Assembly: GCF_021789175.1 (NCBI RefSeq) | Contig: NZ_CP084560.1 | Coordinates: 4,216,001 to 4,280,000, forward strand | DNA from: Arthrobacter sp. FW306-2-2C-D06B | GTDB lineage: Bacteria > Actinomycetota > Actinomycetes > Actinomycetales > Micrococcaceae | DNA length: 64,000 bases | Direction of reading: 5' to 3' | Part shown: positions 7,347 through 61,982 of the stretch, piece by piece | Layout of the letters: every line of letters begins with the position of its first letter | Numbering within the stretch: the first letter of the stretch is position 1 | Program-made: the position numbers and the translations under genes | The notes under the pieces: generated by a model | What the model was told of the DNA's origin: nothing | Database searches by the model: none | The model's input: only the letters and a program-made list of their open reading frames with translations

Positions 7347-9299
7347 ATGCCGCCCTTAGCCCCCACGATCGTGTTCATTGGCGGTGGTCCGCGCTCTGCC
7401 GGCATCCTCGAACGGCTCGCAGCCAACAAACCGGACCTCTTCGATGGCCCCTTCTCCATCCACGTCGTCGAGCCGTACGAACCCGGTTCCGGGAGGATCT
7501 GGCGCTTTGACCAGAGCCCGGGACTCCTGCTCAACTCCACGGCAGCGGACGTCACGATGTTCACCGACAGTTCCGTGGCCTGCGATGGTCCCTCGGTGGA
7601 CGGTCCGGGCCTCGCCGCATGGGCGGCCGGCGTGCGGGAGGGTTCCATCCGCGACGTTCCGCAGTTGGAGTCCCACCTCCGTGAGCAGCTCCGGACGCTC
7701 ACACCGGCGTCCTTTCCCAGCCGCCAGCTCCAGAGCAAGTACCTCGAGTGGTTCTTCCGCAAGGCCGTCGAGGCACTCGGCCCGGACGTCACGGTGACGG
7801 TCCACCGGGACACGGCCACCGCCGTCGAACATCTTGCTCCAGGGCACGACGGCGGTGCGAAGTACCGCGTGCGGCTCGCCTCCGGTGGGGTCGTGGAGGC
7901 GGACATCGTGGTGTATTCGCTGGGGCACACGGACTCCCGGGCCGATCCGGAGTCCGCGCGTCTGACGGGGTTTGCCGCGCGCCACGGCGGGTTCCACGCG
8001 GCGCCGTCGTACACCACCGACGTCGACTACTCGGCGATAGCCCCCGGCCAGGACGTCCTGGTTTCGGGCATGGGGCTGGCGTTCGTGGACCTGCTGGTGC
8101 TCTTGTTCGAGGGCCGCGGCGGCCGCTTCGAAGACAGGCCCGACGGCGGTCTGGAGTATGTGCCGTCCGGCGCCGAGCCGCGGCTCTGGGCAGGCTCCCG
8201 GCGCGGAGTCCCCTACCACTCCAAGATCTCCTCGACCCTGCGAGGGGAACCCGGGGGCGACCCGCGGTACTTCACTGCCGCCGCCGTGGAATCGCTGCTC
8301 GCCGCTCACGAGGAGCTGGATTTCCGGACCCAGCTATGGCCGCTCATCGCCAAGGACGCCGGCTACGCCTATTACCGCGAGCTCTTCACCGGCTATCCGG
8401 CACGGGTCCACGGCGGCTGGGAAGAGTTTTCGGCGCGCTTCGATGCCCTGGACTGGTACGGCCGCGAACGCGAAGACCTCGTGGCCGCGGCCATCCCGGA
8501 CCCGACCCTCCGGCTCGACCTCGAGGCCCTGGACCAACCATTCAGCGGCTGCGCCTTCGCAGACCATGCCGCCGTGCAAAGATCCGTGGCGGGCTACATC
8601 GAACGCGACCTCAAGCTCCGCACGAGCCCGGACCATTCGGAAACCTTGGCCTTGTTCACGGCCCTGCTCCGCGTCTACATGGAGCTCGGCCGGCTGGTCC
8701 CGCCGGAGCGGCTGAATTCGCGCTCCCAACAAGCGGTGCACGGTTGGTGGCACGGCTTCTTCAGCTTCGTGGATTCCGGACCGCCGCCCCACCGGCTGCG
8801 CGAAATCCTCGCCCTGCACAGGGCCGGGTTGCTGCAGTTCCTCGGCCCCGGCATGTGGGTGCGTCCGGACGAAGCCAGCGGCCGATTCGTGGCCGGTTCC
8901 TTCCAATCGCCCGTAGTGGTGGACGCTGCGGCGTACATCGAGGCCCGGTTGCCGTCGCCGTCGGTCACGCTATCGGCCAACCCCGCGCTGGCGGACCTGC
9001 ACGACGCCGGATGGGGCACCGAACAGTCACTCCTCACCTCGGACGGCCCGCACTCCACCGGTAAGCTGTTGGTCTCGAGTTCGCACGAAGTCCTGGCTTC
9101 CGACGGCGGACGGCAGGCGGGCCTCTTCGCCGTCGGACCCTGGACCTCGGGGTGGGGCGCGGGTGCGTTCGCGCGGCCCGGCACCAACGCTGCACCGTTT
9201 CGCGAGAACGACGCCCTGGCCCGCCGCCTCCTGGCCGAACTCTCCGCCCGTCACCCACGCACCAGCCACCCAACTGACTCGCAGTTGTTGTCGTTTTGA
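7347..9299 (+). CDS. Large FAD/NAD(P)-binding protein
   Basis: 650 residues. The N-terminal nucleotide-binding signature is IVFIGGGPRSAGILERL at residues 8-24, followed by HVVEPYEPGSGRIW, typical of the FAD-NAD(P)-binding domain family (NAD_binding_9). A further GQDVLVSGMGLAFVDLLVLL segment looks like a second dinucleotide fold. The ATG at 7347 has CAGGAG 6 nt upstream, and an earlier in-frame ATG at 7251 lacks one. It is divergent from the transporter-monooxygenase operon and followed by a GNAT gene. It may supply reduced flavin or oxidise an intermediate (inference). Its last codons and stop lie inside a 66-bp dispersed palindrome. Confidence 0.8.
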   Translation: MPPLAPTIVFIGGGPRSAGILERLAANKPDLFDGPFSIHVVEPYEPGSGRIWRFDQSPGLLLNSTAADVTMFTDSSVACDGPSVDGPGLAAWAAGVREGSIRDVPQLESHLREQLRTLTPASFPSRQLQSKYLEWFFRKAVEALGPDVTVTVHRDTATAVEHLAPGHDGGAKYRVRLASGGVVEADIVVYSLGHTDSRADPESARLTGFAARHGGFHAAPSYTTDVDYSAIAPGQDVLVSGMGLAFVDLLVLLFEGRGGRFEDRPDGGLEYVPSGAEPRLWAGSRRGVPYHSKISSTLRGEPGGDPRYFTAAAVESLLAAHEELDFRTQLWPLIAKDAGYAYYRELFTGYPARVHGGWEEFSARFDALDWYGREREDLVAAAIPDPTLRLDLEALDQPFSGCAFADHAAVQRSVAGYIERDLKLRTSPDHSETLALFTALLRVYMELGRLVPPERLNSRSQQAVHGWWHGFFSFVDSGPPPHRLREILALHRAGLLQFLGPGMWVRPDEASGRFVAGSFQSPVVVDAAAYIEARLPSPSVTLSANPALADLHDAGWGTEQSLLTSDGPHSTGKLLVSSSHEVLASDGGRQAGLFAVGPWTSGWGAGAFARPGTNAAPFRENDALARRLLAELSARHPRTSHPTDSQLLSF

Positions 9300-9334
9300 C
9301 GCCTCATAACGACAACAAATGCGAGTCAGTTGGG
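9269..9334. repeat. 66-bp dispersed palindrome, copy 1
   Basis: Left arm CCCAACTGACTCGC (9269-9282) matches right arm GCGAGTCAGTTGGG (9321-9334) perfectly. The inner arms GTTGTCGTT and AACGACAAC also pair, giving a hairpin with a small central loop. The same 66-bp element occurs at 50093-50158 and 61917-61982. This copy overlaps the 3' end of the FAD-binding protein gene, so the last residues of that protein are repeat-encoded. Confidence 0.85.
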
Positions 9335-18262: not shown

Positions 18263-18547
18263 CTACTTCTTGGCGACGGCTGCCTTCAGCTTGGAGCCGG
18301 CGGTCAGCTTGACGCTGTGGCCAGCGGCGATCTGGATGGTCTCGCCGGTCTGCGGGTTGCGGCCCGTGCGGGCGGCGCGGTCGGTGCGCTCGATGGCGAG
18401 CCAGCCCGGAATGGTGATCTTCTCGCCAGCGGCGACGGAAGTCTCGAAAACTTCGAACAGGGCATCGAGCACGGAGTTGACTGCAGCCTGGCTGGTGCCA
18501 GCCTTGCCAGCTACCTCGGAAACCAGTTCGCTACGGTTCTTAGCCAT
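18263..18547 (-). CDS. hup: HU-family DNA-binding protein
   Basis: 94 residues, standard HU length. MAKNRSELVSEVAGKAGTSQ helix pair, GEKITIPGWLAIE, the beta-arm core AARTGRNPQTGETIQIAA, and a lysine-containing C-terminus KLKAAVAKK. It binds and bends DNA as a dimer and compacts the nucleoid. The ATG at 18547 has a consensus AGGAGG; the 15-residue upstream extension is not used. The gene lies alone, with an ordered 32-bp repeat array starting about 190 bp upstream of its start. Confidence 0.97.
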   Translation of the reverse strand: MAKNRSELVSEVAGKAGTSQAAVNSVLDALFEVFETSVAAGEKITIPGWLAIERTDRAARTGRNPQTGETIQIAAGHSVKLTAGSKLKAAVAKK

Positions 18548-18738
18548 TTGTGTCCTCCTGGACTTTACGATTTTGGAGCTCACACACGGCATGTGTGCGA
18601 GCCACTGTTCGAAAACTTACCAGCTTGGGACGGCCCGGCCAGCAAATTCCGCGTGTTTCCGCGCTTTTTTGACCAAATTCACCCTATTTCGGGCGCTTTT
18701 GGGGGTCAATTCCGCCGCGGGCGAACTCCCCGGCTCCG
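18548..18738. promoter_or_regulatory. HU upstream region
   Basis: Contains the HU ribosome-binding site (AGGAGG just upstream of 18547) and an A/T-richer stretch at about 18640-18700 that probably holds the promoter. No reading frame is convincing. The repeat array begins directly beyond it. Confidence 0.4.
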
Positions 18739-19044
18739 GACGCTAGCTCACATATGGGGGGTCCTGACCGGACGCGAGCTCACATATCCCGGGCCCTAGC
18801 CGGACGCCCGCTCACATATCCCGGGCCCTAGCCGGACGCCCGCTCACATATCCCGGGCCCTAGCCGGACGCCCGCTCACATATCCCGGGCCCTAGCCGGA
18901 CGCCCGCTCACATATCCCGGGCCCTAGCCGGACGCCCGCTCACATATCCCGGGCCCTAGCCGGACGCCCGCTCACATATCCCGGGCTCTAGCAGGACGCC
19001 TGCTCACATATCCCGGGCTCTAGCCGGACGCCTGCTCACTTCTG
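18739..19044. repeat. 32-bp tandem array A, ten units
   Basis: Ten successive units begin at 18739, 18771, 18803, 18835, 18867, 18899, 18931, 18963, 18995 and 19027, each exactly 32 bp apart. The unit starts with GACGCCCGCTCACATAT and continues TCCCGGGCCCTAGCC. The central units are identical, while the two at each end carry substitutions. A degenerate inverted core (ATACGTGAGCCGGGGTC) is at 19084-19100. The same core with 32-bp spacing occurs in three other intergenic regions of the window. It lies between the HU gene and the rRNA operon terminator. Confidence 0.95.
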
Positions 19045-19169
19045 CTGAGGGCGGGGGAGGCCTGGGGTCCGTGGAAACCGTTCATACGTGAGCCGGGGTC
19101 TGCCAAAGGGGCCGGATATCTGGGCGGGGGTTTTGGGGGTGGGGGTGTGTTGTGGGTGTTTAAATGGGT

Positions 19170-19212: not shown

Positions 19213-19331
19213 GTCCGGCGGTGTCCTACTCTCCCACACCCTCCCGGGTGCAGTACCATCGGCGCTGTGGGTCTTAGCTTCCGGGTTCGGAATGGGACCG
19301 GGCGTTTCCCCCACGCTATGACCGCCGTAAC
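19213..19331 (-). rRNA. rrf: 5S ribosomal RNA
   Basis: The minus strand reads GTTACGGCGGTCATAGCG at the 5' end, has the conserved CCCATTCCGAAC loop, and ends with complementary CCGCCGGAC, giving the terminal helix. About 119 nt. The ends are estimated from the helix and may be off by a few bases. Confidence 0.95.
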
Positions 19332-33676: not shown

Positions 33677-33835
33677 GACGCCCGCTCACCTATGAGCCAT
33701 TTTGACCGAACGCCCGCTCACCTATGGCGTGTTTCGGGCAAACGCCCGCTCACATGAGGTGAGCGGGCGTTCCGGCTTTTGGCTGTATACGTGAGCGAGC
33801 GTCAGGGAAAGTGACGATATACGTGAGCGGGCGTC
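33677..33835. repeat. 32-bp array B, three direct and three inverted cores
   Basis: Core starts at 33677, 33709 and 33741 (32-bp spacing, GACGCCCGCTCACCTAT or close). The third joins an inverted copy through CGCCCGCTCAC ATGAG GTGAGCGGGCG, a perfect hairpin at 33743-33769. Inverted cores end at 33771, 33803 and 33835, again at 32-bp spacing. It fills the gap between the siderophore-interacting protein gene and the SGNH gene. Confidence 0.95.
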
Positions 33836-39130: not shown

Positions 39131-39257
39131 GACGCTCGCTCACCTATGTGGCACTTTCGGCGGACGCTCGCTCACCTATCGGGCACTCTCGGCGGACGCT
39201 CGCTCACCTATATGGCACTTTCGGCCGACGCGCGCTCAACTCTAGTGAGCGAGCGTC
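39131..39257. repeat. 32-bp array C, four direct and one inverted core
   Basis: Cores begin at 39131, 39163, 39195 and 39227 (GACGCTCGCTCACCTAT and variants) at exactly 32-bp steps, with spacers resembling GGCACTTTCGGC. The last forms a hairpin with an inverted core ending at 39257. Lies between the iron-box promoter and a possible small gene. Confidence 0.95.
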
Positions 39258-40110: not shown

Positions 40111-40205
40111 AACGCTCGCTCACCTTTGGGGGCAAAACCGCCGACGCCGGCTCACGTCAAGTGAGCGAGCGTCGGCCGAAAGTGCCACACAAGTGAGCGG
40201 GCGTC
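40111..40205. repeat. 32-bp array D, two direct and two inverted cores
   Basis: Cores at 40111 and 40143 (ACGCTCGCTCACCTTT, GACGCCGGCTCACGTC), then inverted cores ending at 40173 and 40205, all in 32-bp register. The centre forms a hairpin (CGGCTCAC ... GTGAGCGA). It lies between the convergent FBP gene and jetC, with the jetC stop 4 bp away. Confidence 0.93.
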
Positions 40206-50092: not shown

Positions 50093-50158
50093 CCCAACTG
50101 ACTCGCATTTGTTGTCGTTTTGACGCCCGATAACGACATCTACTGCGAGCTAGTTGGG
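50093..50158. repeat. 66-bp dispersed palindrome, copy 2
   Basis: Left arm CCCAACTGACTCGCATTTG and right arm GCGAGCTAGTTGGG, 66 bp overall, same length and layout as copies 1 and 3. Between two convergent genes. Confidence 0.85.
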
Positions 50159-61916: not shown

Positions 61917-61982
61917 CCCAACTGACTCGCATTTGTTGTCGTTTTGGGGCCCCATAACGACAACAAATGCGAGCTAGTTGGG
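61917..61982. repeat. 66-bp dispersed palindrome, copy 3
   Basis: CCCAACTGACTCGCATTTG at the left and its near-complement ending GCGAGCTAGTTGGG at the right, 66 bp, with a short central loop including GGGGCCCC. The most symmetric of the three copies, just upstream of the FadR gene. Confidence 0.87.

Follow-up and report, generated by a model that had tools for sequence, protein, structure and literature searches.

The ten-unit array and the geometry of its repeat family

The stretch analyzed here (the window) is 64,000 bp of the Arthrobacter sp. FW306-2-2C-D06B chromosome, positions 4216001-4280000 of the complete 4,564,406-bp sequence. An array of ten phased 32-bp repeat units lies in it between an HU-type gene (18263-18592, minus strand; named by its protein, with no family search) and a 5S rRNA gene (19213-19329, minus strand). 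The cores start at 18739, 18771 and so on to 19027 (n = 10) and each step is exactly 32 bp. Compared to GACGCYCGCTCACMTAT, six cores had no mismatch, two had one, one had two and one had three. Across the window 24 core matches with at most three mismatches were found compared to 0.55 expected, and 0 of 100 shuffles reached 24. Tandem Repeats Finder placed the array at 18736-19043 (period 32, 9.5 copies, 95%). By eye, the window and the other genomes inspected showed a terminator-like hairpin between the 5S gene and the array.

An earlier note on this DNA, made from the sequence alone, had described ten 17-bp cores at exact 32-bp steps between HU and the rRNA operon, and both the cores and their neighbors were verified. 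Its interval of 18739-19100 held as far as 19043, the remainder containing only a degenerate reverse copy. Five central units (18803-18962) were identical, in line with the recent homogenization that had been proposed. The note had set CRISPR aside. CRISPR-type unique spacers were absent, the spacers within the array being near-identical; no search for cas genes was made.

The 17-bp core pattern occurred 133 times in the source genome, while the same pattern reversed gave no occurrence. Positions were listed for 100 of the 133, and the statistics on steps and elements refer to approximately 0.5 Mb of stretches around these hits plus the window. At least 57 phased elements with two or more good cores were present in the scanned stretches, and the array beside HU is one of them. 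Same-strand core steps were 32 bp in 194 cases, 33 bp in eight and 31 bp in four. Where plus cores were followed by minus cores the commonest separation was 18 bp, which gives a 31-bp palindrome. Counted between unit centers at own and related loci, 68 of 100 distinct plus-to-minus switches lay at a multiple of 32 to within 1 bp, 51 of them exactly, and a single 32-bp lattice therefore mostly spans the whole element. Such a lattice is expected of a DNA-level binding platform. In the unit consensus GACGCYCGCTCAC.TAT precedes a loose spacer in which positions 25-27 are T. A supposed "type B" dialect of the core, GCCCCATCAGTT, was rejected as it was present in 1/198 genomes.

Distribution in the chromosome and among genomes

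Gene context was taken from a simple gene finder of our own (455 genes) with the rRNA operons added. The 57 elements comprised 22 between convergent, 29 between codirectional and six between divergent genes. Convergent gaps were enriched compared to other gene pairs of the same stretches (odds ratio 4.4, p = 6e-6). Among gene 3' ends adjoining elements 46/73 were within 30 bp and 13/73 overlapped the element; the figure for 5' ends within 30 bp was 5/41. The median distance was 18 bp to 3' ends compared to 86 bp to 5' ends. Each of the five 5S genes in the source genome has an array 97-112 bp downstream. An IS256-like transposase remnant (L040:4393-4704), identified by protein reading with no family search, was seen between plus and minus arrays downstream of an rRNA operon.

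A dnaA-like gene, read by eye, starts at the first base of the chromosome, and the half of the chromosome around this base holds 35 of the 53 elements located below 4.045 Mb. No strand bias of the cores by replichore was found (R 71+/63-, L 76+/72-) and a replication-polar signal was rejected on this basis.

The earlier note had proposed a binding array for an architectural protein and had pointed to the adjoining gene for one (HU). A binding array would fit the lattice, which is mostly kept across the orientation switch. The link to HU was not supported: arrays of this core are missing from the HU-rRNA gap of four relatives (G006, G028, G010 and G054), dozens of elements lie elsewhere, arrays follow all five 5S genes, and the gene most consistently bracketed by repeats encodes a DUF559 protein and not HU. 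An HU platform was rejected, and a role as an HU docking site is scarcely credible. The interpretation in the note was partly supported, the observation itself being confirmed.

The preference for convergent ends and rRNA operons would also suit topological elements like the bacterial interspersed mosaic elements (BIMEs) of E. coli, with arrays attracting DNA gyrase where positive supercoils accumulate. Gyrase is general, whereas the cores are lineage-specific dialects. BIME-like gyrase sites have a phased ~10-bp G+C variation. Here A+T excess occurred at unit positions 15-17 and 25-27, but a clean 10.7-bp A+T periodicity was not found, the third harmonic (13%) being reached in 2642/20000 column permutations and thus not significant. 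Published work agrees with the gyrase explanation: enrichment is reported in E. coli for gyrase sites in BIME-2 and on the downstream side of rRNA operons (PMC6379681), and in M. tuberculosis for gyrase between convergent genes (PMC5433769). Overall it appears quite unlikely.

Overlap with 13 of the 73 adjacent 3' ends raises the question of bidirectional transcript 3'-end elements, in which the central palindrome would fold into a hairpin in the RNA and Rho would load at the C-rich units. One element center, that of the second window element, folds into a strong hairpin (z -5.45). At the palindrome centers complementary arm changes were found at 30/109 deviating positions (27.5%) compared to 8.1% in shuffles, with kinship of the rows uncontrolled; related rows and quasi-palindrome correction are further possible sources of paired arms. 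The T-run, at unit positions 24-27, lies ahead of the palindrome and does not directly follow the hairpin. An intrinsic terminator was rejected by this test, in keeping with the note's statement that the array is of no known terminator type. The six elements between divergent genes and the hairpin already present between the 5S gene and the array also argue against a 3'-end function. Orientation bias was not established, as of 11 informative codirectional single-orientation arrays eight were sense and three were not; the overall 19:4 sense bias of single-orientation arrays arises mostly by construction for convergent genes. The 3'-end explanation is very unlikely. The 32-bp unit consensus is not palindromic and pairing excess was found only at the plus-to-minus center. 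Long fold-back of entire arrays was rejected, with no pairing excess in spacers or outer cores.

The strict two-copy pattern was found in 46/198 genomes of the genus, for which the core was too strict. With a relaxed core, tandem pairs were present in 159/198 and the reversed-pattern control gave 0. A family sample gave 9/295 genomes with the strict pattern, own genus included, in 2/32 genera. At the order level there were matches in 6/297 genomes, three of them own-genus, with some pairs not 32-bp stepped and with one control match. A pattern scan returned at least 119 stretches, and the titles among the matches listed were all Arthrobacter or Paenarthrobacter. No stretch with the strict two-copy pattern was found in viral contigs. 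A plasmid search with one array and a phage search with another element gave no match, and a phage or plasmid origin was rejected for the viral contigs, plasmids and phages searched. The search for 32-bp periodicity in other genomes, proposed in the note, showed the core across the genus at 32-bp steps; therefore neither random spacing nor restriction to this strain was encountered.

Elements occupy the same gene gaps across related species. Between species the spacers retained 62% identity and the ten core positions 92% where the flanks keep 90%, the units having been selected for possession of a core and 61/237 being gapped in the alignment. Copy number varies between arrays and some arrays are homogenized, as would be seen if they were neutral minisatellites that slippage had lengthened in the absence of any partner. 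Conservation of the core while spacers diverge, the lattice mostly kept through the orientation switch and the bracketing of one gene family by repeats (below) make this explanation highly improbable.

One relative (G051) has ten cores in the HU-rRNA gap, with flanks 96-99% identical to those of the array-free G054. A further empty site was seen opposite element 154533 of the source genome in Hiyo8. In G028 apparently decayed 32-bp units were observed behind rRNA operons (L203 and L204), with degenerate cores and partly kept spacing. Compared to G000:C1:490320-491219, the segment that two convergent arrays enclose in Arthrobacter sp. MI7-26 (L097) is turned around while its flanks are not, as expected from recombination between the arrays.

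A candidate partner gene of the DUF559 family

The candidate partner gene lies outside the window (G000:C1:3402573-3403533) and encodes a 319-aa DUF559 protein. The product has a predicted winged-helix N-terminus and a predicted DUF559/Vsr-like nuclease domain; the Vsr/DUF559 fold and the conserved acidic and histidine residues were both found. In a survey of array-bracketed genes, which gave 12 families with bracketing in one organism or more, the DUF559 gene ranked first (3/4 organisms). Relatives at E<=1e-10 were present in 197/198 genomes of the genus. The flanks of the best hit were inspected in 40 genomes, chosen among high scorers and among genomes with and without strict arrays. At least two plus cores before the gene and at least two minus cores after it were found in 33/40. 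At least two cores on a given strand occurred in 16/400 random array-free pieces. The best lag was 31-33 in 38/40 upstream and 28/40 downstream flanks compared to 15/200 random pieces.

Of 19 genomes without a strict pair, 16 were nonetheless bracketed, most commonly by the dialect GACGCTCTCTCAC. This dialect, found at bracketed genes, was then widely met in the genus with the relaxed pattern. Core dialects are lineage-specific and the gene flanks carry the local one. Residues 102, 112, 162 and 193 of the protein track the dialect, with relatedness uncorrected. The upstream neighbors of the gene formed nucleotide clusters of 26, 8, 4, 1 and 1; clustering was by nucleotide similarity and could split diverged copies of one neighbor. 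Given several clusters, the association of gene and array holds beside different neighbors (at least three kinds). One moving gene or paralogs may account for these.

Within 140 bp ahead of the aligned start TGTGGATAA was present in 37/40 orthologs (L239-L278), at 47-49 bp in 33. We take it to be a DnaA-box-like 9-mer. TGTGGA was present in 31/45 DUF559-family flanks. On these motifs, expression of the gene may be tied to replication initiation.

The source genome has seven such DUF559-family genes. Many relatives have one and the same repeat in both flanks, each gene having its own; they reach down to approximately 30% identity and include genes from further families in the order. Shared flank repeats exceeded the 99% level obtained with randomly drawn Arthrobacter genes at 17/25 order-level loci and 10/15 further copies, the latter count leaving out one duplicate. 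The paralog at G000:C1:3769012 has inverted pairs of CGCATTTGTTGTCG in its flanks. This motif has 60 exact copies genome-wide (31 forward, 29 reverse) with 20 exact pairs 30 bp apart, and the control gave 0. A third motif (ATCGATTGCTNNGTA) was found at eight places (control 0), of which two flank gene 365012 and another precedes gene 4148831. Besides the ten-unit array, the window contains three further elements of the same family, which like the inverted-pair architecture had gone unmentioned in the earlier note, and copies of the second family (Table 1).

Table 1. Repeat elements located in the window.
Feature	Position	Strand	Method
Ten 32-bp units, 17-bp core GACGCYCGCTCACATAT and 15-bp spacer	18736..19043	+	Core search, Tandem Repeats Finder
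Degenerate core in opposite orientation (3 mismatches), ending the array toward the rRNA genes	19084..19100	-	Core search; also seen from 5S side
Second element: three + and three - units with a tight palindrome (33741-33771) between them	33677..33835	.	Core search; hairpin fold
Third element: four + units (last degenerate), one - unit	39131..39257	.	Core search, repeat finder
Fourth element: two + and two - units around palindrome, between convergent genes	40111..40205	.	Core search
Second repeat family (CGCATTTGTTGTCG): inverted pair, 1 mismatch each	9280..9323	.	Motif search
Second repeat family (CGCATTTGTTGTCG): single copy	50104..50121	+	Motif search
Second repeat family (CGCATTTGTTGTCG): inverted pair	61928..61971	.	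Motif search

Proposed mechanism and comparison with known systems

A likely explanation is that the DUF559 partner, which combines a predicted winged helix with a predicted Vsr/homing-type nuclease, binds the repeats of this family and both maintains and spreads them. The N-terminal domain would recognize a single 32-bp unit, equal to three helical turns, and neighboring partner proteins would align along the same side of the helix. The nuclease domain would nick or cut at or next to the repeats, and repair would copy, lengthen and homogenize the arrays. The array beside HU would then be an ordinary dispersed copy grown to ten units and tolerated behind an rRNA terminator. Binding, cutting and mobility by the partner are proposed here from sequence.

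Several observations weigh against this proposal. The overall model was poor and 7/40 DUF559 genes were not bracketed by core count. In G119 array pairs were present (two forward, four reverse) and the family gene was not found at E<=1e-10. In 34 array-bearing genomes there was no ortholog-level hit. The empty sites were ragged. The random Arthrobacter genes used as control were not matched to the order-level genomes, and half of the paralogs in the source genome had no shared repeats above control.

The operator reading is also listed among these points. It holds that the gene-flanking repeats are operators of an AbiEi-like self-repressor, the dispersed arrays being a regulon or decoys and not spread elements. 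The DUF559 protein has an AbiEi_4 match at residues 13-46 that is weak and below the cut-off; it differs from the AbiEi antitoxins of type IV toxin-antitoxin systems in having its own predicted nuclease domain. AbiEi antitoxins reportedly bind inverted repeats and regulate their own expression through them (PMC7319586), and a long inverted repeat lies just upstream of a number of DUF559-family genes. Operators predict repeats before and not after the gene, whereas opposite-orientation arrays also follow it in the 33 bracketed genomes, and the dispersed elements lie closer to 3' than to 5' ends. This reading is considered unlikely.

The proposed partner-driven system was compared to REPINs, inverted pairs of repetitive extragenic palindromic (REP) sequences, and their REP-associated tyrosine transposases (RAYTs). 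REP-like repeats are common. To our knowledge an assigned enzyme is known among them only for the GTAG/RAYT class. In both systems inverted pairs are scattered over extragenic sites, most of them at the 3' ends of genes; the types are lineage-specific, a genome has more than one, and a dedicated enzyme gene is flanked by inverted repeats. The enzyme families differ, that of Arthrobacter being a predicted winged helix with a Vsr/DUF559 domain, and 32-bp direct arrays are found here. The GTAG tetranucleotide is absent from the 32-position unit consensus. The RAYT domain (Y1_Tnp, PF01797) was found in 0/20 genomes compared to 5/14 control genomes, and RAYT-driven REPs were rejected on this basis. 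The Arthrobacter system works like REPIN/RAYT but is not a member, as the search gave no PF01797 and the unit does not carry the tag.

CGTC-tagged REPs, as described in parts of PMC3733652, lie mostly between convergent or codirectional genes and are reported there without a dedicated transposase; their single units form hairpins and hardly any pairs are arranged head to tail. The complement of the Arthrobacter core also ends in CGTC. The Arthrobacter unit is non-palindromic in the consensus and lacks the stem of 8-9 bp and the loop of 4-5 nt given in those parts, and head-to-tail arrangement dominates here with its 194 exact 32-bp steps. Unlike Vsr-like homing endonucleases such as I-Bth0305I, the predicted DUF559 nuclease is fused to a predicted winged helix and is flanked by repeats. 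No intron or intein setting of the gene was seen, although no specific search was made. In the open-access literature no paper was found that describes the 32-bp repeat or links DUF559 proteins with dispersed repeats.

Tentatively, and with somewhat less than even confidence, an unrecognized class of partnerships between repeats and nucleases in Micrococcales is suggested. Each winged-helix/Vsr-like nuclease gene would have a private 30-32-bp inverted-repeat alphabet that it copies around the chromosome. The REPIN/RAYT lifestyle would then have been invented a second time, with a homing-type nuclease as its basis. In Arthrobacter one lineage of these partnerships would have given rise to arrays with helical phasing at the ends of genes and downstream of rRNA operons. 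If true, this would add a second and unrelated enzyme, which would account for orphan repeat families and give DUF559 proteins a role. It would also provide a co-evolving system of protein and DNA dialects with a specificity readable from genomes.
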